64,000 nt of DNA. It comes from Archivesica marissinica (taxonomy: Eukaryota; Mollusca; Bivalvia; Venerida; Vesicomyidae). Position 1 is the stretch's first letter, and every line of letters starts with the position of its first letter. A program made the position numbers and the translations under genes. Shown piece after piece: positions 13,201-56,510 of the stretch. The notes below the pieces were generated by a model that saw only the letters and a list, made by a program, of their open reading frames with translations, was not told the DNA's origin and did not search any database. The DNA is taken from the NCBI GenBank assembly GCA_014843695.1, contig CM026387.1:81151128-81215127 (forward strand), in the 5' to 3' direction.

Positions 13201-16200
13201 TTACATGTTACTGTATAATACAGTCCTTTACATGTTAATGTACAAAACAGTCCTTTACATGTTAATGTATAATACAGTCCTTTACATGTTAATGTATAAT
13301 ACAGTCCTTTACATGTTAATGTATAATACTGTCCTTTACATGTTAATGTATAATAATTCCATTACATGTTAATGTATAATACAGTCCTTTACATGTTAAT
13401 GCATAATATAGTCCTTTACATGTTCATGCATAATACAGTCCTTTACATGTTACTGTATAATACAGTCCTTTACATGTTAATGTATAATACAGTCCTTTAC
13501 ATGTTCATGTATAATACAGTCCTATACATGTTACTGTATAATACAGTCCTTTACATGTTACTGTATAATACAGTTCTTTACATGTTACTGTATAATAGTG
13601 TTCTTTACATGTTAATGTATAATACAGTCCTTTACATGTTAATGCATAATACAGTCCTTTACATGTTACTGTATAATACAGCCCTTTACATGTTACTGTA
13701 TAATACAGTCCTTTACATGTTACTGTATAATACAGTCCTTTACATGATAATGCATAACACAGTCCTTTACATGTTCATGTATAATACAGTCCTTTATATG
13801 TTACTGTATAATACAGTCCTTTACATGATACTGCATAACACAGTCCTTTACATGTTACTGTATAATACAGTCCTTTACATGTTACTGTATAATACAGTCC
13901 TTTACATGTTCATGTATAATACAGTCCTTTACATGTTAATATATAATACAGTCCTTTACATGTTACTGTATAATACAGTCCTTTATATGTTACTGTATTA
14001 TACAGTTCTTTACATGTTACTGTATACTACAGTCCTTTACATGTTACTGTATAATACAGTTCTTTACATGTTACTGTATAATACAGTCCTTTACATGTTA
14101 ATGTATAATACAGTCCTTTACATGTTAATATATAATACAGTCCTTTACATGTTCATGTATAATACAGTCCTTTACATGTTAATGTATAATACAGTCCTTT
14201 ACATGTTACTGTATAATACAGTTCTTTACATGTTACTGTATAATACAGTTCTTTATATGTTACTGTATAATACAGTCCTTTACATGTTACTGTATAATAC
14301 AGTCCTTTACATGTTCATGTATAATACAGTCCTTTACATGTTAATGTATAATACAGTCCTTTACATGTTACTGTATAATACAGTTCTTTACATGTTACTG
14401 TATAATACAGTTCTTTATATGTTACTGTATAATACAGTCCTTTACATGTTACTGTATAATACAGTCTTTACATGTTACTGTATAATACAGTTCTTTACAT
14501 GTTACTGTATAATACAGTCCTTTACATGTTACTGTATAATACAGTCTTTACATGTTACTGTATAATACAGTTCTTTACATGTTACTGTATAATACAGTTC
14601 TTTACATGTTAATGTATAATACAGTTCTTTACATGTTAATGTATAATACAGTCCTTTACATGTTACTGTATAATACAGTCCTTTACATGTTAATGTATAA
14701 TACAGTCCTTTACATGTTAATGTATAATACAGTCCTTTACATGTTAATGTATAATACAGTCCTTTACATGTTAATGTATAATAAAGTCTTATACATGTAT
14801 AATTCTTCTCCTCAAGAATTGATTACGTCCATTATTATGTTGCTTCTGGGATTATAATTCCAGCACACAGATATGGTTGTTTTAGCTTCTTCTTTTGATT
14901 ATTACTCTTCCGAAATGAGTGTTTGTATAATTATGGTGAACGGATTCAAATGTATAAAACCAACAAATACGCTGTTATAAACTGATATTATAATGAAATT
15001 ATTTGTATTTGTTCTCAATAAAAAAAAACATAATACACCTATACAGAAAAATAATATTCGACATAACCCGATGATATTGATTCGCGGAGGTTAATGGCAA
15101 CTGTCCTCAGTGACGATGTTAGCGCGATGTAACAGGATCAACGTATGATGCGCGATGTTTGAAACATGTGTTGATAAATAGTGTAGGTACAGTGACGGGC
15201 ATTGATTTGAAGTAATTTAACCATCATCACTAAGTCACGAAGATCTAAAAAGGGAAATAAGTTTCATACAACACGTATTAACAAATGCCCTACCATTCTA
15301 CAAATACATGGATTTCTACTGATTTATAAAATTGGATCTGATAATAATATTCATAACACCAACCTTCCTGGTGATTTCTCATAATAGAATCAATAGTGGT
15401 ATGCATTAGCAGTAGAACATCGTCGACACTTCGACCTAGGGCTCTGTGAAGGTCGTCAACATCTAGCTGTATATGAGCCCACACAAATTCTTCTACATGA
15501 GTGACGTCAATGTCTGGCTTTATAATCCTATGTACTCCCTGAAATGTTCGTAACACTCTCAAATATAACTGGATAGCAACTACTTCAAAGGAATAAATAA
15601 CTTATATTAAGATACTCAACCGTATTGCGCATTGCACTGTTTGAAACTTAGGTTTTGATGTGTGATATATTTCTCTAATTGCTCGCAATTTCGCTGGTTA
15701 TAACTAGGTTGATGGAACACTATAAATACTTGTTTACTCCTTCTATATATATACCTACTGTGTCACTTTATATGAAAAGGTTGGCAGTTTCTTACACAGG
15801 TTGGTGCACAAAGTACTGGTTATCAGCTGGAGCCTCCCCAGGAAATGTTTTGTTAGGTAAACTGCCCGTCGTTCAAATGGGCAACCAGTAGCAACGTTAT
15901 TTAAATATTAATAAAGAAAACAAACATATATATACCTGCTGGTTTCTTCCTGCCCCTATATACATAGCCAAGTGCATCAATAACCTGAGTGAAGCGCAGT
16001 AAGCTGGGGTAAGTGTTCTTTCAGGCTTTGGACCATGACCTCTAGCATCAGCACGGCCAAGTATATGACCAGTCATCGTATTGTCCTTTCTGCATAATTG
16101 ACAAAATTAAATACTACAGAACATTACAACACATAAATGAAATGAAAAGTTTATTTAGTCTCTGGGTATATTTAACATGTAGAGCTCAATGTCGAACCTC

Positions 16201-19200
16201 ATACCATTTATTAATATTTTAAAACAAGCCAATATTCCGTCTCAATATTTTAAAGAAGCGACTAGTGTACATCTAAACTAAATATTAACAGTTCAGAGAT
16301 ATCATCTTCATGATGGCTAATCATTTATTAATGGTAGTGCATTTTCAAAAGTGATTGAATTACTTTTCAAATAGACAAGAAAATAGACAGAATCAATGGT
16401 CCGAGACAAGAGTACTTAAATGAAATGTGCATTGTGTATCCAAGGGGTGCCGGCTGATTCGTGCTCAGAACAAAACATATGTGTGCAATTAACTCGCATA
16501 ATGTGGTACACACATAGTTGGTGAGAGTTTCACTGTGCAGATTTATGTGAAGATTAATATGCAGACATTTTCCACAGCTGTAAGACATTATATTCTGGTG
16601 CAAGCTATGTATGATGTCATTGACCATGACCGTAAATTTCAACACAGTATACTATCTCATAATGATGAACATTGGTACTCGGTTATTGCTGCATTAAGAG
16701 TTCACCTTTGACCCCAAAGTGTGACATTGACCTATGACGTGCATTCCTGAAGTTGCGCATAAGACACAACACGACTCTTATTGTGAAATTACATGTCGTG
16801 CTTGGGGCATTATTGTCGAAAAAAGATTTGACAATATTTGAGCCTGGATATCTGCACGACATTGACGTGATATGGTCAGAATAGGACATTATCAGAATGA
16901 CCAGTATTTCATAATATTAAATCAGTTGCAGTGTTTTTAGAACCATGAATGAAATATGACATTACAGGTATGACAAACACGCTTTCACCTATATTCTAAT
17001 TGCATGATGGCATAATATTATGCACTTTTGTTTGTGGAAATATATTCACATAAACCAACCCAGTATCCTGGGAATTTGTAGGAAGCAGTCTGTGACCCTG
17101 ACCTCCAATTTCAGCCCCACATTTACATCTGGCTACCACATACGGCCTACCACACTAAATAGACAATAAATAAAGTGAATAGAAGGAATATGTGTTAAAT
17201 TAAATACATTCTGAATGTCATAGAGTTTCGAAGACCAGGAACGAATTTTAATCAATGCAGAAATTTGGGAGTATATGGAGTCCATATACCCAAAAATACG
17301 GCACTGTACTAATCTAAAGATCAGATGTTCCAAATACTCGGGGTATTTGCAATCCAATCCGTGAACTCCTGTGTATGGAACTATATTTTGCCATAGTTGC
17401 CCCCAATTTCCTTATAAAATGGTTTTTAATGTAATAAAGTTGAAACAAAACTCAATGACATTTCATGAACATAACACATAGCAATCATGTTGTTAACAGT
17501 TGAACAAAAATTCACACACAGAGGAAACAAACTTCCACATAAATATGTTCAAAAGAATATATGCCAGATACATGTAGATAAATTACAACTTTTATAAAAC
17601 TTTGCACACAAGCAACGTTTGATTCCCCTGAGTGAATTTACAGTTCAATGTGTCACTTCTGAGCAATAACTGACCCTGGGTCTTGTATATTGCCTGGGCG
17701 GAGTCTGTAACCCTCTCCCCCAATAGTAGCACCACAGTCTCTGCAATTTCCGACTGTTGCTGGACGTCCACACTAAGGTATAGAAGCATTATTTGAAAAC
17801 AGTCCTCCTTAGAAAAAATGATAATAGCAGCACATAATCTGGGTGATCTAGCCTAAAGATAATGCTACATATTGAGAAAACTCAAGTAATACTAAACCTG
17901 GTTCGGTCTATGGTACCATTCTATGGTACCATTCTATGGTACAATTCTATAATGCTATGTTACAATGCTATGGTACAATTATATGGAACAATTCCATGGT
18001 ACAATTCAATGGTATGATGCTATGGTACAATTATATGATACAATTCTATGGTACAATGCTATGGTACAATGCTATGGTACAATGCTATGTTACAATGGTA
18101 TGGTACAATTATATGGAACAATTCCATGGTACAATTATATGGTATGATGCTATGGTACAATTCTATGATACAATTCTATGGTACAATGCTATGGTACAAT
18201 GCTATGGTACAATGTACAATGCTATGGTACAATGCTATAGTACAATAATATGGTACAGTGCATTGTGCTATGGTACAATGCTATGGTACAATGCTATGGT
18301 ACAATTCTATGGTACAATGCTATGGTGCAATGCTATGGTACAATTCTATGGTATGATGCTATGATACAATGCTATGATACAATGTTATAGTATAAATTAT
18401 ATGGTACAAGGCTATGTTACAATGCTATGTTACAATGCTATGTTACAATGCTATGGTACAATTCTATGGTACAATGATATGGTACAATTATATGGTACAA
18501 TGCTATGGTACAATGCTATGGTACAATTCTATGGTACAATGCTATGGTACAATTCTATGGTATGATGCTATGGTACAATTATATGGTACAATGCTATGGT
18601 ACAATTCTATGATACAATGTTATGGTATAAATTATATGGTACAATGCTATGTTACAATGCTATGGTACAATGCTATGTTACAATGCTATGATACAATGTT
18701 ATGGTATAAATTATATGGTACAATGCTATGTTACAATGCTATGGTACAATTCTATGGTACAATGCTATGGTACAATGCTATGTTACAATGCTATAGTACA
18801 ATGCTATGTTACAATGTTATGGTACAATTATATGCTACCATGCTATGGTACAATGCTATGGTACAATGCTATGATACAATGCTATGGTACAATTCTATGG
18901 TACAATGCTATCATACAATGCTATGGTACAATGCTATGATACAATGCTATGGTACAATGCTATGGTACAATGCTATTGTACAATGCTATGGTACAATGCT
19001 ATTGTACAATGCTATGGTACTATGCTATTGTACAATGCTATGGTACAAATGCTATGATGCATAATGGATATTAAAGATATGACATTGTAATAATAAGAAT
19101 ATTATTCAGGGAACCTCATACATGAACAGTGTCACAATTCATAAGAATAACATCGTTCATAACAATATAACCATTCATAACAATGTCATGGTTCATAACA

Positions 19201-22200
19201 ATATCATGGTTCATATTATCATTATTCATAACAATACCATGGTTCATAACGATATCATGGTTCACAACAATATCATGGTTCATAGCAATATCATGGTTCA
19301 TAGCAATATCATGGTTCATAACAATAGCATGGTTCATATTATCATTATTCATAACAATATCATGGTTCATAACAATATCATAGTTCATAACAATACCATG
19401 GTTCACAACAATATCATGGTTCATAGCAATATCATCAGTCATAGCAATATCATGGTTCATAACAATATCATCGTTCATAACAATATCACCATTCATACAA
19501 ACATAATATCAGTCAATACATAAAATTATCATATGCTGCAAGTTTATACTCATGAATCTACCTGGTTTACAAATATATTACATACTTACATCACCAATGA
19601 CATATGGATGGCCATTCGGACATCCTGAAATAGAAGTCAATGCTATAATACAATGCATCCTTTTGGTAATTATTGATGTTCACAAAAATAATTGTCTCAT
19701 AAGCCGAAAATGGCTGATCTTTCAATAGGTTTGACACCACAATAAACAAAAACTTTACTTTAGATAACGTATATAAATAACAATTCCAGCCGATGCAATT
19801 CCAAACTTTACTTTAGATAACCTATATATATAACAATTCCAGATGATGCAATTCCAAACTTTACTTTAGATAACCTATATATATAACAATTCCAGATGAT
19901 GCAATTCCAAACATTACTTTAGATAACGTATATAAATAACAATTCCAGCTGATGCAATTCCAAACTTTACTTTAGATAACCTATATATATATATATATAA
20001 CAATTCCAGATGATGCAATTCTAAACATTACTTTAGATAACGTATATAAATAACAATTCCAGCTGATGCAATTCCAAACTTTACTTTAGATAACCTATAT
20101 ATAACAATTCCGGATGATGCAATTCTAAACTTTACTTTAGGTAACGTATATATATAATAATTCCAGATGATGCAATTCCAAACTTTACTTTAGATAATGT
20201 ATATATATAACAATTCCAGATGATGCAATTCCAAACTTTACTTTAGATAACGTATATAAATAACAATTCCAGATGATGCAATGAAAACAATTGAAGTAAC
20301 CTGATAGAACTAGTTAATCCCAGATTAAAATTTCCCAATCTTCTAATTGATGCAGATTCAGTACAATAATACTGAAGGAACAAAACACACATATACAAAT
20401 AATTACTTACGGTAGAATACAGGATACTGTAGGAACAAAACACACATATACAAATAATTACTTACGGTAGAATACAGGATACTGAAGGAACAAAACACAC
20501 ACATACAAATAATTACTTACGGTAGAATACAGGATACTGTAGGAACAAAACACACATATACAAATAATTACTTACGGTAGAATACAGGATACTGTAGGAA
20601 CAATACACACATATACACATGATTACTTACGGTAGAATACAGGATACTGAAGGAACAAAACACACATATACAAATAATTACTTACGGTAGAATACAGGAT
20701 ACTGAAGGAACAAAATACACACATACAAATAATTACTTACGGTAGAATACAGGATACTGAAGGAACAATACACACATATACAAATAATTACTTACGGTAG
20801 AATACAGGATACTGAAGGAACAAAATACACACATACAAATAATTACTTACGGTAGAATACAGGATACTGAAGGAACAAAACACACACATACAAATAATTA
20901 CTTACGGTAGAATACAGGATACTGTAGGAACAACATATACAATATTACTTACGGTAGAATACGGATCTGAGGAACAAAACACACATATACAAATAATTAC
21001 TTACGGTAGAATACAGGATACTGAAGGAACAATACACACATATACAAATAATTACTTACGGTAGAATACAGGATACTGTAGGAACAAAACACACATATAC
21101 AAATAATTACTTACGGTAGAATACAGGATACTGAAGGAACAATACACACATATACAAATAATTACCTACGGTAGAATACAGGATACTGAAGGAACAAAAC
21201 ACATATACACATAATTACTTACGGTAGAATACAGGATACTGAAGGAACAAAACACATATACACATAATTACTTACGGTAGAATACAGGATTATTATCACC
21301 ACCGGTTTGGTTTCTCGCTGCTAGTAAAGCTTCCTTCACATCCTCGAGGTCATCTTGAGGCATTGTGGGTAAAAACATGTTCTGAAATGAGACATACGTG
21401 TGACCTGAACTTATGCAATGGTATATTTACATAATTATTACATAGGCTGACGCACTTTAACAATTCAATTCAACTTTATTGGCATAATCAGCAAACAAGT
21501 TGCCTTTGGCCATTTACAAACACAAAAAACTATGGCAAAGACAAATATAAATACATATGGTAATGAATATTAAATATATACATGTATATTTATACATTTT
21601 CATACAACATACATTTAAGAAACAATTAAAATGGCCAGGGCATTTTTCCTTATTAACATACATTCTTTAATATATTTAGATAAGTTTACTTGCAAATGTT
21701 TATTTTTTGTCGAACAACATAGCATAACATGATATTCTGATTCAACTGCATGTTGACTACATAACTTACACACTCTGTTTTCTCTTTCAATACCGCTATA
21801 CCGACCATATTCAATCTCTAAGTTGTGAGAAGACAATCCTAATCTAGAAAAATGTGTTCTTAATTCATCATTGGTAATATTACAAAGATAACCTTCAAAT
21901 ACAAAATCTGTTTTATATTTACAATAGTGATCCAATTTTGACATAGTGTTAATAGCTTCTCTCCATACCAAGATGATCGATTACTGAATTAATTTTAGTC
22001 GCCCAATTCGTATTTACATTTTGATAGAGATCATTATACATTTTAATCATAGGTGAATCATTTTTTTGTCATAATATTTAACCAATATTTTATTGATCTC
22101 TCTCTACAGATGATTGATAATGGGAATCTTCCCAGCTCTCCAAGTACAGCACTATTTGGAGTTTGATGTTTCACTCCAAGGATATATTTACAAAATCTTA

Positions 22201-37200: not shown

Positions 37201-40200
37201 AAACTAGTTAAATAGATGCATTGACATTACTTGTTGATACTGTGCCATGGATGCACTAAAGGAGAGCGCACTGACTGCAACAACTAAGTAATGTGTATGC
37301 TCTAATTGGTGTATGCTCTAATTGGTAAAAGACCGTGATGATATTGGCATCAACTTTAATTGCGTTCTCATAATGACACAAATATGGCACATTACGTTGA
37401 TATGTGTTGAGTAGATTACCTCTAGACACTGTATAACAAGCAGACTTAGTTCCACATAATGTTGTTCCTTGTCAGTTGAATTTTCCCTTATAAATTCTTG
37501 TGCCTCACTCAGATATCGTTGCAGGTTATCCATTACGTTCTGTTCACTGTAAATTGAAACATTTTACACACATGTTGTACCATTACCTCACACAAGAAAA
37601 TGTATCATGGGTAGAATTCAAAAAGAAGTCCCGAACTGGTATTATTTGTGATTATTCTAACAGAAAATGATCTATATGTGGTTAGCATGTTCAGACGAAA
37701 CTAAAAGGCGATATATAACATAAAAACAGAGACCTATCACAACAATAATACCCCAAATAATATGCAACTCTATGTCTGCTCCTGGTAAATTGTAAATGTA
37801 CATAGAATATTGATACAATATTGTGTATGTTTTAGCATTGATGATTTAATCATTGCAAAATGGCAGGTTTACAATAATTGTAAATTGGTTTAGTTGATTT
37901 TCTATGCTTAAATCTTTAGCAACCATTGTATTTAATCATATTTTATTGCAAATCAATAGTACATATGTCATACATATTAAGATACAATACATAGCATGAA
38001 ACTACAAATGGTTGGGCCACACGTTTTAACAACATTAGACAACAGCCCGCACAGCACAGCAACATGTTAAATTCACGTCATAAACTCTTCAGGTATGTAA
38101 CATCATGTTATTTTGCAAGTTCTTGTGCGGTTTTTCCAAACTCTGCTTGAAAAAAAAGCAATCTAATTGAGATATATAATGTATTTATAAGTCACCTTGT
38201 TCTCATAAGAAGTTGCAGAAGGAAGGATCTAAACACAGGATTAGGATCTATCCCAGTATCAAATATTGTCAGGTTTCTTGTGCGCTGACGTTGTCCTCGT
38301 GTAGTAAAGAAGATGTATCCCAGCAGTTTCTCTACAACTTCCTGTGATGGTGCCCTGTTTTCAGCAAAGCACAGCTGGGATACAACATCCATGAAGAATG
38401 TGTTACATCGCTTCTGATAGTCTTTCAATTTATCTATTGCATCTCTGGTAAAAAGTAAATTGCAACATTATACAATGACAAATCATGTTGTACAAGTCCC
38501 ACATATTTGATTTTGGTCTGTGTATACTAAAAATAGTCATTGCCATTGACGTGCTAAGTAATAATTGTTTCATTACAGAGCAATATTGCATGAGCAACAT
38601 AGCTGACTTTTGTTACCTCCCTTGGCAGATAACGTCGGATTTATACCAAATTGTAAATAGGTCCTTTTAGTTGGAATCCTTAGTTTTTACTATTGTTCAT
38701 TAACAAGATGTTGCGGTAGGATACATGTCTCAGATTATTTGTTATTCTCTAGAAGGGTGTTCAAACTTGTGTAAAGACATTTCAAATCCCTATTGCGGTT
38801 CAATCCCCTATCTCAATAATGGCAATCATCTGTCCTGTGCACATGTCATAGGGGCAATTGTGTTTGGTTGCAACTCTGCTTCCTGAGAATATGAAATAAA
38901 ACTAGAAACTTGGTTGCTATAGTCAAGTAATGTTGCAGAATCTTAAATTAGTATAAATATAGTATAATAATGTAGAAAGTACGACTTTGCACTGTAAACC
39001 ACTGGGCATATCAGGAATACTTAAATGTGAGTTGTGCAATAGCTATATCACATCTGACTACATGAACACATGATCTCATGCTATAACTACATAATAAAAC
39101 AATTATTTGGTTAGCTGATGTATGGATTTCGTCTGTCAGCTTATAATTAAATACTTTTTGGCTGTCTGATTAGCGCAGTGGTTAGCGCGCTCGTTTCTCA
39201 CAAATGCAAACAGGGTTCGATCCTGGGACCGGGAAGTATGTGAGATGGTACGGTGGTCGCCATATCGGACTGGTGGGTTTCCTCCGGGTACAGCGGTTTC
39301 CTCCCACATGAATGGCCACATTTACGCTTTCATCCGCGCCAACGAGAGTGATTAATATAATTTGTTAGACCTTGCTTCACAATCGTTGTAAAATAAATAA
39401 AGTTTAAGCTTGTGATTAAACATTTGAAGGGTCATTATAGTTTACCTTCAATGGTTTCTTACAACTACAGAAACAAAAGAAGCAATAAAATGTTTTTTAT
39501 TATTTATTAAGTGTTTGTACAATGATGCCAAAGAGAGATTTTAGAAAGTATACAATATGATAAAGCTAGCATGTGTTCATTCTATCAGAATATGGACCAG
39601 CAAACATACATATGCATGATTTATGTACACAAATTATATGTTCCTTTCAGTGACAGGGATACCAACTACAATCCATAATAATTACCATTCAACTACATAA
39701 TTATGTGTTGTAATGATAAAAACTTTACTTTTTAGCCGTTTGACGCTCTGGAGTCCAGTCGCTTGGAATCTGTTTACGACATTTGACACACATGTTCTCT
39801 TTGAGGGCTTGCATTCCATCGTAACACTGGTCACACAACACATGCTTGCAGGGCAACGTGATTGGTGGACCCTCCAGCACAGACTCGCATCCATTGCACT
39901 TCACTTCAGCTCTATACAATGGATACATTATATGATAGAACCAATAGCTTATAAGAACATAATGTTAATATGAATAGAGTACACTACATACCAGTCTATG
40001 GTAGCAGTATTGGGGACAAATCTGATAGTCAGAGATACTATTAATATCACACTAATTGTCTGACAGTTGCTACTAAAAGGCCGAAAATTGGGAACATAGT
40101 TGTTCTTCCTCACATATTGCATATAGGTCAATGGTCCAATTGCAGTGTGTTACTTCATAGTAATGTTTGCGGAGACGATCGTGGTGTCTAACTCAATCTA

Positions 40201-52700: not shown

Positions 52701-52778
52701 ATATGGATACTAGGGATTCAACGAATGTTCGAATATGCATTCGATAGTTCGAATATTAAACGTGTATTCGAATATAAC
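52701..52778. other. TTCGAA-rich sequence at contig end
   Basis: GGGATTCAACGAATGTTCGA..ATTCGATAGTTCGAATATTA..TATTCGAATATA runs into the N block. It resembles the end of a repetitive element, plausibly why the assembly broke here. Confidence 0.5.
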
Positions 52779-53778
52779 NNNNNNNNNNNNNNNNNNNNNN
52801 NNNNNNNNNNNNNNNNNNNNNNNNNNNNNNNNNNNNNNNNNNNNNNNNNNNNNNNNNNNNNNNNNNNNNNNNNNNNNNNNNNNNNNNNNNNNNNNNNNNN
52901 NNNNNNNNNNNNNNNNNNNNNNNNNNNNNNNNNNNNNNNNNNNNNNNNNNNNNNNNNNNNNNNNNNNNNNNNNNNNNNNNNNNNNNNNNNNNNNNNNNNN
53001 NNNNNNNNNNNNNNNNNNNNNNNNNNNNNNNNNNNNNNNNNNNNNNNNNNNNNNNNNNNNNNNNNNNNNNNNNNNNNNNNNNNNNNNNNNNNNNNNNNNN
53101 NNNNNNNNNNNNNNNNNNNNNNNNNNNNNNNNNNNNNNNNNNNNNNNNNNNNNNNNNNNNNNNNNNNNNNNNNNNNNNNNNNNNNNNNNNNNNNNNNNNN
53201 NNNNNNNNNNNNNNNNNNNNNNNNNNNNNNNNNNNNNNNNNNNNNNNNNNNNNNNNNNNNNNNNNNNNNNNNNNNNNNNNNNNNNNNNNNNNNNNNNNNN
53301 NNNNNNNNNNNNNNNNNNNNNNNNNNNNNNNNNNNNNNNNNNNNNNNNNNNNNNNNNNNNNNNNNNNNNNNNNNNNNNNNNNNNNNNNNNNNNNNNNNNN
53401 NNNNNNNNNNNNNNNNNNNNNNNNNNNNNNNNNNNNNNNNNNNNNNNNNNNNNNNNNNNNNNNNNNNNNNNNNNNNNNNNNNNNNNNNNNNNNNNNNNNN
53501 NNNNNNNNNNNNNNNNNNNNNNNNNNNNNNNNNNNNNNNNNNNNNNNNNNNNNNNNNNNNNNNNNNNNNNNNNNNNNNNNNNNNNNNNNNNNNNNNNNNN
53601 NNNNNNNNNNNNNNNNNNNNNNNNNNNNNNNNNNNNNNNNNNNNNNNNNNNNNNNNNNNNNNNNNNNNNNNNNNNNNNNNNNNNNNNNNNNNNNNNNNNN
53701 NNNNNNNNNNNNNNNNNNNNNNNNNNNNNNNNNNNNNNNNNNNNNNNNNNNNNNNNNNNNNNNNNNNNNNNNNNNNNN
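52779..53778. other. Assembly gap of exactly 1000 N
   Basis: Round-number run of N, so a scaffolding placeholder rather than a measured distance. Open frames crossing it are meaningless. Confidence 0.99.
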
Positions 53779-56510
53779 CTCCATACCAAGATGATCGATT
53801 ACTGAATTAATTTTAGTCGCCCAACAATTCGTATTTACATTTTGATAGAGATCATTATACATTTTAATCATAGGTGAATCATTTTTTTGTCATAATATTT
53901 AACCAATATTTTATTGATCTCTCTCTACAGATTATTGATAATGGGAATCTTCCCAGCTCTCCAAGTACAGCACTATTTGGAGTTTGATGTTTCACTCCAA
54001 GGATATATTTACAAAATATTATATGTAGTTTATCAACACATTTGAAACTAGTATTATTATATATTCACCACACTTCAGCACCATACAGCAATATTGGTAC
54101 CACCATTTTGTCAAACAATGATAGTTTAGTTTTAATATAAAAATTTACTTTATTAAACAATGATAAAAGATTATGATAAGCTCTAAGCACTTGATCATGT
54201 AGGGATTTTACAGCTCCTGACATATTACCGGTGTATGTAAATTTTACACCTAGGTACGTGAAATGTTCTACTCTTTCAATGCTTTCTCCATTTATGTTAA
54301 AGTCAGGGTAGACGTTTACGCTTTTCAAACACACATATTTTAGTTTTACTAACGTTAATTTTCAAGCCCCATGTTTCTGAATACTGATAGATACTATATG
54401 CATCAGTGGTGAACAAGACCATATCATCGGCAAATAATATCATATACATTGTTAGCAAATCAAGATCTCTGTCTGTTAACGAATTAATATCCAAATCTCC
54501 AATAAGATCATTTATAAATAGTATAAATAAGAGGGGGGATAAAGGTTCTCCCTGTTTTAGACCGATTGTTACATCAAAGAAATTGGACAATTCAACAGTA
54601 CTTGACAATTTAACACAATATTGAACAACATTATAAATACATTTAATCATATTGACCATTTTACAGCTGATACCTGTTTCGAGTAATTTCACCCACAATG
54701 CATCACGATTAACGGTATCAAAGGCTCTCTTATAATCGATGAAAATGCATCACAGCCTAGAACGTTTTGATAATACTTTTTGAATAATAGTATATAACAG
54801 AAAAATAGCATCAGCTGTAGAACGTCTGTCATGAAACCCAAATTGTGTATCATTAAAGACATTTTCTGATTCACACCATTTATTTATACGATTTCTCAAT
54901 AAAAGTGAGAAGATTTTACCAATAACATTTACTAATGTGATTCCTCTATAATTAGAGGGGTTACTCGTATCAGCCTTCTTAAAAATGGGTACAATAACTC
55001 CCTTTATCCATGAATATGGGTAAGCACAGTTATCAACTATATGATTAAACATACTACATCAATAAGGTAATATAAAAGAGTTTGTATCAATGAAAAAATC
55101 AGACACATTATTTTCATAATCACTAGTCTTATAACGGTTTAACGTAGACATAGTTCTTTCTATTTCTTCTAAAGTTACTGGTCTATCTAATTGATCAATA
55201 TTTACAGTTTCGTCACGTGACACATTGTGATCATTTATATCAAATCGACATTGAGATTCATTAGAAATATTCGAAATTCTTCCAAATTCACGTTATTAGC
55301 AGTGGTAGTATTAGTTTTAAATTTCTTAATTATATTATATTTCCAAAATTGACGTGGTGACTTCTTGCTCATATATGACAATTTAATGTTCTCTTTATAA
55401 TAGAAGCTTGACTTGGCTTGTAGTTTATTTTCATCAGACCTATCAAACATAAATCACCGTTTGGCTGCAAAAAAGTTATGCTTTGCTGTTCTACAATTTT
55501 CATCAAACCAAGGAGATTTCTTCTTTTTAAATTTCGGAGGACTATTTACTGTCCTTGCAAAACATTTAAAAGAGATGTCATGAGCTAAATTTGAAAACTC
55601 GTTCATACACTGATCTATATCATATTCTCCTGATAACAATTTGCTATTAATACTGTCAAATAATAAACTGTTGCTATTTACTTCTTCTAGAAAAGACTCT
55701 TTCTATCATATTTTACAGAATCATTTTGTGGTACATCAATACAATAGTTCAATGCAAATACAATAGGACAATGATCCAAGAACTCTCTGTTATATCAAGA
55801 ACACAAAAATCTGTTATATCTTGATAATCCTCATATCCCGTAATAATATAGTCAACTAAACTACAAACTGGTTTATTTTTCAAAATAGAGTGAAAAGTAC
55901 ACCTTCCGTCATCGTGGTGACCATTTATTATACACATGTCATTTTCTTTACAAATATTTAATAGGTTTAACCCAAAATTGTTGATCTGTTGATCTTGGTT
56001 ACGTCTAACAGGTAAACTGGTCGTCTGCGCATCAGATTGAGGTATATCAACATAACGGTCAAGGTTTAGATTAGGGATATAATCAACCAAGTCACCCGTG
56101 CGATAATTTAGGTCACCTACCAGTAAACAGCACCATGGTCACTATAATTACGTATTTCAGTATTAATATGCTCAAAAAAATCAAATTCATATAATGTAGA
56201 ATTATTGTTTCTATACAAAGCTGAATTTTCAGGCGGTATGTAGCTCACACAAAAATAACAATAATGCTTATCAAGTTTAAACCAAATTATACCTCTCACA
56301 TCTAAACTAATAAGCTCTAAATAATGTTCATAGCATTCTTTATAATACATAATAACTCCCCCACTATCTCGTTTAGCCCTTTTATTTGACTTTGGACGAG
56401 GGCAGTTAAAATTATCAAAACCTTAAATTTTAATATTTGTGTTGTTAGAGTTCCACGATTCCACAAATAACAAAATATCAAAATCGTTTACATGTAATTG
56501 CAAGTTCGTA
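53779..56510 (-). pseudogene. Broken LINE, second copy (3' end lost in gap)
   Basis: Same fragments as the 21.5-24.7 kb element (FADDMVLF, LKQGEPLSPLLFILFINDL, NGHHDDGRCTFHS), sharing its inactivating breaks, plus a few private indels (shortened segments near 54340-54410 and 55700). The zinc-knuckle end is missing at the gap. Confidence 0.87.

Follow-up and report, generated by a model that had tools for sequence, protein, structure and literature searches.

A probable pair of mutually exclusive exons at the RZ-finger active site of a clam RNF213 gene

Two frame-incompatible exons in one RNF213 gene

A 64,000-nucleotide stretch of the 1.54 Gb genome of the clam Archivesica marissinica (the window; C2:81151128-81215127) carries on its minus strand an RNF213 gene in which the exon bearing the predicted active site of the RZ finger is present twice. 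These two exons, 23a and 23b, are intact, homologous, equal in phase and mutually incompatible in frame, and both classes are conserved in other species, where they are found singly at identical borders. Based on the sequence, 23a and 23b are probably an old, tandemly duplicated pair of mutually exclusive exons by which the RZ active site is switched between two forms.

The Mercenaria protein P0003 matches the window gene exon by exon, from 52211 down to 1164 (tblastn, E up to 1e-3), and with this query exon 23 is the sole exon matched twice in the window beyond what a 31.5-kb tandem repeat explains. Its two copies lie between exons 22 and 24 (Table 1), with introns of about 1.8 kb from 22 to 23a, 520 nucleotides from 23a to 23b and 970 nucleotides from 23b to 24. 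Both have a TAG acceptor, the donors are GTCAGT (23a) and GTTGGT (23b), and each exon is entered in phase 0 and left in phase 2. Coordinates and splice sites thus agree with the original prediction, made from the window alone, of adjacent homologous exons of 98 and 95 nucleotides with matching phases.

Either exon joins 22 to 24 with the frame open. Use of both (22-23a-23b-24) brings a stop at the eighth codon from the 23a/23b junction (...QDPGVVGRMW, then stop), and skipping both (22-24) brings a stop after 13 codons of exon 24 (CPNGHPYVIGDKGQYDDWSYTWPC, then stop); each outcome is identical at all three loci of the genome that carry both exons. The joins therefore behave as first proposed, and the mutually exclusive layout that had been read from them fits both the frame logic and the conservation of the two types, singly and with equal borders, in other clams.

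The exon choice falls on the predicted active site

In human RNF213 the metal is bound by residues C4505, H4509, C4525 and C4528; the nucleophile is predicted to be C4516 and the general base H4537, and the H4509A and C4516S proteins gave no ubiquitylation of three tested pathogens (PMC11549300). With nucleophile and base both predictions, the RZ chemistry of RNF213 still has the standing of a model. Alignment to RNF213 with this numbering places the equivalents of C4505 and H4509 in exon 22, which encodes the first part of the finger and is shared by both forms. By alignment count, both copies of exon 23 open with the nucleophile cysteine. Because the H4537 position lies within the same exon, the alternative part begins at the predicted nucleophile and includes the predicted base.

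In the window, 23a carries Tyr at the H4537 position and 23b carries His. The last two zinc cysteines are spaced C-x2-C in 23a, as in the human protein, and C-x1-C, one residue shorter, in 23b, which bears out the predicted contrast of C-x8-C-x2-C with C-x8-C-x1-C. Both joined fingers are recognised by the Pfam RZ-finger family PF20173, with 62 bits for 22-23a-24 and 59.9 bits for 22-23b-24 (cut-off 27), and both align with PDB chains of RNF213 over 94-96 residues, at 3e-15 and 6e-13. This refines the suggestion of a catalytically altered isoform: neither form simply loses the catalytic cysteine, because the C4516 equivalent opens both exons and H4509 sits in the shared exon, and the notable contrasts are Tyr against His at the predicted base and the C-x1-C spacing of 23b. 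Exon 22 (19590-19624) is itself a 35-nucleotide micro-exon holding two of the four zinc ligands.

Both exons have been kept as coding sequence

Aligned over 93 bases, the window copies of 23a and 23b show 39 differences but share 19 of 31 residues; 12 of these 19 codons carry a synonymous change, and the proportions of synonymous (pS) and nonsynonymous (pN) differences are 0.81 and 0.29. We simulated uniform substitution to the 23a/23b divergence in 20,000 runs, with all change on one copy. No run retained 19 identities and none retained the Cys and IGG residues free of stops, although 31% were stop-free. The pS and pN values and the simulation argue for purifying selection on both exons for much of their separate history and, with conservation in other species, rule out 23b as a relic or a chance similarity.

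Three protein searches gave 92 homologous proteins, of which 78 were surveyed; 74 of these have a readable finger (P0017, P0020, P0043 and P0050 have none). Outside the survey stand P0027, P0033, P0036, P0041, P0045-P0049, P0051-P0053, P0093 and P0094, several of them without a finger readable by the patterns used and several not lophotrochozoan; P0046, P0049 and P0051 do have readable C-x2-C fingers, with Tyr, His and His respectively. Across the 74 fingers the last two cysteines are spaced C-x2-C in 62, C-x1-C in nine (six Mercenaria, one Ruditapes, two Lineus) and C-x4-C in three, the last being Mytilus P0028, P0029 and P0064. The base position is His in 52, Tyr in 21 and Asn in one.

The original prediction had suggested looking for the paired exons at RNF213 loci of related bivalves; at the protein level, both exon types are present in annotated Mercenaria proteins. 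The 23a type is seen in Mercenaria P0059 and, beyond that genus, in Mactra P0056 (88% each; 85-88% depending on how the segment is cut). A 23b found only as an unspliced relic, unconserved in related species, had been named as an observation that would overturn the proposal; 23b-like sequence is present in Mercenaria P0003 (84%), P0004 (88%) and P0005 (81%), with P0077 likewise of the 23b type. P0059, P0003, P0004 and P0005 are the Mercenaria proteins nearest to the window gene in their flanks (66-78%) among 40 compared, and the flanks of Mactra P0056 match at 64-69%; in all five the exon is better conserved than its surroundings. Potamilus P0078 is 74% identical to the window 23a with flanks of 53%, and compared with its nearest conspecific His-form protein, P0082, the exon is 50% and the flanks 79% identical.

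An exon swap between otherwise similar proteins

Mean flank identity is at least 78% in 57 homolog pairs, and in three of these both flanks reach at least 95%: Mercenaria P0059/P0077, Mya P0012/P0083 and, in a nemertean, Lineus P0089/P0091. In all three, divergence starts just past the first residues of exon 23 and ends just ahead of (R/G)DNT, and His and Tyr are exchanged at the predicted general base. Differences in the exon against the flanks number 15/33 against 11/275 in the Mercenaria pair (Fisher p 4e-10), 9/34 against 7/275 in Mya (p 6e-6) and 15/33 against 8/275 in Lineus (p 3e-11). The pairs were also scanned in 33-residue windows from up to 1500 aligned columns before exon 23 to 700 after it (1963, 2167 and 1762 windows). 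Exon 23 holds 18 identities in Mercenaria, 24 in Mya and 18 in Lineus, against 20, 24 and 25 in the lowest window elsewhere, and is thus the lowest window of each pair, bar one tie in Mya at a misaligned C terminus.

A tree of the flanks was built from 29 rows, comprising the window gene and 28 proteins from before the third protein search. The window gene groups with Mercenaria P0003, P0004, P0005 and P0059 (99/99), within which P0004 pairs with P0059 as its sister (100/100). On this tree the 23a/Tyr label is unclustered: it needs 8 changes, where shuffled labels average 7.9 and 356 of 500 shuffles need as few. Clustering is seen for the C-x1-C label (3 changes, 5.6 when shuffled) and for the remainder (6 changes, 9.8 when shuffled). 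A single, vertically inherited exon per gene is disfavoured, because the 23a/Tyr label would then cluster; its scatter would fit alternative exons of long standing, an exchange among paralogs or recurrent mutation.

Copies of the exon pair elsewhere in the genome

Exons 22, 23a and 24 are present at six loci on C2, and 23a and 23b occur together at three of them: the window, 78.197 Mb and 78.616 Mb. The latter two are identical over 1578 intron bases and were counted once, leaving two distinct dual-exon sequences that are 3.3% apart in their introns. The loci at 78.197 and 78.616 Mb are two inverted copies, the product of either a very recent duplication or a false duplication in the assembly. 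No 23b-like exon was found beyond the three dual-exon loci (3 of 13 matches) in a search that scores candidates only.

The other three loci have gaps that remove 23b, covering window positions 17051-17165 (115 nucleotides) at 78.106 Mb, 17022-17179 (158 nucleotides) at 81.671 Mb, and both 16996-17386 and 17410-17501 (391 and 92 nucleotides) at 77.901 Mb. Because the deletion borders differ among the three, we infer that 23b is ancestral and was lost three times by different deletions, 23a being kept in six of six. The chance that a random deletion in the intron contains 23b is 0.014 for 115 nucleotides, 0.045 for 158 and 0.38 for about 505, and from these values removal of 23b looks favoured.

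The base position of 23a is Tyr in the window and at 78.197, 78.616 and 78.106 Mb, and His at 77.901 and 81.671 Mb. Both loci with a His-bearing 23a are without 23b; however, 78.106 Mb also lacks 23b yet retains Tyr and thus has the Tyr form only, which disfavours a simple compensation rule. The window 23a differs from that at 81.671 Mb at 9 and from that at 77.901 Mb at 10 of 98 bases, nearly all in nonsynonymous codons, with introns 2.1% and 5.1% apart. Several of these changes are common to 81.671 and 77.901 Mb. The exon may have evolved fast or undergone gene conversion. The distance from exon 22 to 23a varies from 803 to 3545 bases among the loci; in the window this intron is filled with arrays of repeats of about 13 and 18 bp (17900-19530).

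A seventh match to exon 24, at 77.066 Mb, was set aside as an isolated fragment, there being no convincing match to 22, 23a or 23b in the surrounding 20 kb (which include 1000 N). Four further RZ matches lie at C4:35.0-35.2 Mb (L001-L004), each inside one open frame; L001, the sole one of the four examined, we take to be ZNFX1-like.

Weighing a splice switch against its alternatives

Several observations weigh against a live switch. Three of the six loci, at 78.106, 77.901 and 81.671 Mb, are without 23b, so that a switch could not be universal, and the window 23b donor is, in our unscored judgement, further from consensus than the GTAGGT of its paralogs. Between the dual-exon sequences 23b differs at 2 of 95 bases and the introns at 3.3%; both of the 23b changes are nonsynonymous, and two changes do not demonstrate recent purifying selection on this exon within the genome. 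The homologs are annotated gene models clustered at 90%, which hides isoforms, and the high-flank pairs, with flanks short of 100% identity, probably come from paralogous genes and not from a single locus as isoforms. In the Mercenaria and Lineus pairs the N-terminal regions, beyond the reach of the scan, diverge strongly, and in Mercenaria another window, at column 4145, scores nearly as low as the exon (20/33 identities against 18/33 in exon 23). Saccostrea P0011/P0061 show Tyr/His without a clear exon swap (exon 82%, p 0.17), as do Potamilus P0008/P0081 with exons 82% alike, and in P0075/P0080, P0069/P0071 and P0019/P0072 (flanks 90-95%) both members have His.

Some of these points would be expected if an ancestral exon pair had been resolved separately in each duplicate, with one copy at the dual-exon loci a leftover that is rarely or never spliced. 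The three separate deletions of 23b, the weaker-looking donor in the window and the single exon type of every homolog model examined, with differing pairs that resemble paralogs, are all in keeping with such sorting. Against it, both exons are intact with their splice sites in two distinct dual-exon sequences, and the low odds of random deletion for the two shorter gaps suggest that 23b competed in splicing rather than lying dead. Sorting without a live switch consequently seems to us unlikely, if worth keeping in view. A role for 23b (or 23a) chiefly as a poison exon, whose double inclusion would bring a stop and lower the amount of enzyme, agrees with the eighth-codon stop found at each of the three dual-exon loci; by our estimate, though, most frame-shifted reads of about 31 codons would hit a stop by chance, and both exons preserve the protein sequence of the finger and are productive coding sequence in other species, so we regard this role as improbable. 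An artefact of assembly or haplotype is more improbable still: the window does contain an N gap and a partial 31.5-kb tandem repeat, and two of the loci are identical over their compared introns, but the pair is present in two clearly different sequences with equal order and similar spacing, and both exon types exist in other species. The two exons do not come from adjacent, separate genes, as the order of introns and of exons 22 and 24 is unchanged across three loci, and the intron flanks persist where 23b is deleted.

A possible mechanism

If 23a and 23b are mutually exclusive, as we think probable, the spliceosome would pick one of them for each messenger RNA. Transcripts with both exons or neither would meet an early stop and be removed by nonsense-mediated decay, which would keep the output exclusive without steric blocking. 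Other devices were considered. Steric blocking and mixing of U2 and U12 sites are set aside on account of the 520-nucleotide intron and the donors, which look like U2 sites with no U12-type donor seen. Intron pairing was unremarkable, with a best z of -2.5 among 10 comparisons against mononucleotide shuffles, which leaves frame and decay as the candidate device.

The 23b form would have the usual Cys-His pair with C-x1-C zinc spacing, and the 23a form canonical zinc spacing with Tyr where the general base is predicted. Such fingers would pass on ubiquitin at different rates or to different preferred acceptors, be they protein, lipid A or others. A Tyr form that is simply dead is unlikely, because Tyr is common among the homologs (21/74); a change in rate or acceptor would be the more likely consequence. 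Exon choice would in this way add a second layer of variety above gene duplication. More tentatively, and as a possibility that we would not yet lean on, His-form and Tyr-form RZ fingers may constitute a lophotrochozoan switch, either dating back to the divergence of bivalves from nemerteans or repeatedly evolved, in which one gene would yield two ligases of different catalytic chemistry and gene families would re-sort the forms among paralogs.

Other features of the window

The RING finger lies upstream of the RZ finger in the window gene, as in RNF213. The AAA+ core of RNF213 falls outside the matched part of the window; AAA Pfam domains are found in P0003, P0004 and P0059. A partial tandem repeat of the E3 region of the gene, offset by about 31.5 kb, spans 22-32.5 kb and 53.8-64 kb, and an N gap at 52778-53794 terminates its second copy. 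Both copies contain a reverse transcriptase frame that is presumably of long interspersed nuclear element (LINE) type. The RING-adjacent exon of a further copy lies just outside the window, at C2:81220554. Rfam gave no match at gathering threshold within 15.9-19.7 kb.

Table 1. Positions of exons and of the 23a/23b intron of the RNF213 gene within the window
Feature	Position	Strand	Remarks
RING-finger exon, same gene, upstream in transcript	39728..39907	-	tblastn with P0003, 70% identity; borders approximate
Exon preceding exon 22	21274..21378	-	...LEDVKEALLAARNQTGGDNNPVFYR; tblastn with P0003 and P0004, 80%; borders approximate
Exon 22	19590..19624	-	35 nucleotides, ends CPNGHPYVIGD; AG/GT borders and neighbouring exons
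Exon 23a	17675..17772	-	98 nucleotides, CGRPATVGNCRDCGATIGGEGYRLRPGNIQDP; canonical C-x2-C; Tyr at H4537 position
Intron between 23a and 23b	17155..17674	-	520 nucleotides, GT-AG
Exon 23b	17060..17154	-	95 nucleotides, CGRPYVVARCKCGAEIGGQGHRLLPTNSQDT; C-x1-C; His at H4537 position
Exon 24	15936..16089	-	154 nucleotides, (G)KDNTMTGHILGRADARGHGPKPERTLTPAYCASLRLLMHLAMYIGAGRNQQ

Relation to known systems and significance

Classical mutually exclusive exons, such as those of Dscam, tropomyosin and ion channels, are adjacent, homologous, equal in phase and incompatible in frame when used together, and they typically alter binding or gating surfaces. The clam pair resembles them in being adjacent, homologous and phase-equal, with a frame that is broken if both are used. 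Unlike those examples, the clam exon opens at the predicted catalytic cysteine of a ubiquitin ligase and alters another residue with a predicted catalytic role.

The nearest bivalve precedent found is the alternative oxidase of oyster, with a tandem duplicated exon 10 and stress-dependent use (PMC5589949). The two systems share a bivalve host and a duplicated exon of which either copy supplies residues near functional sites. The oyster exons, in contrast, are terminal exons that each supply a stop, and an alternative 3' splice site is involved; those of the clam RNF213 are internal and their exclusivity is frame-based. With the RZ finger of vertebrate RNF213 the clam gene shares the gene family, the finger and its place downstream of RING, and both clam exon types begin at the C4516 equivalent; it differs in having two options at the base, Tyr or His, and two cysteine spacings, C-x2-C or C-x1-C.

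In keeping with the original prediction, no such switch of RNF213 was found in the open-access papers covered, taken mainly at the level of abstracts. Alternative RZ exons are not described in the accessible parts of PMC11549300, PMC12440826, PMC9304896, PMC7430831, PMC7982604, PMC10925056, PMC9993606 and PMC11299980, and the words exon and isoform are absent from the main text of PMC11549300. Human RNF213 is differentially spliced in T cells, at an exon that the accessible text leaves unnamed (PMC10925056).

RNF213 ubiquitylates bacterial lipopolysaccharide and coats pathogens (PMC11549300, PMC12440826), and the family is expanded in symbiotic bivalves (PMC9993606). In the Manila clam, microbial patterns provoke strong responses of RNF213-like genes, upward in some and downward in others (PMC7430831), which makes a regulated switch testable. 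A natural His/Tyr pair at the predicted base, present in one gene and swapped in three lineages, is a ready-made experiment on that residue. Splicing may alter what this defence enzyme does, and the exon pair suggests that animals without antibodies may diversify an immune effector at its catalytic end as well as at the end that serves recognition.
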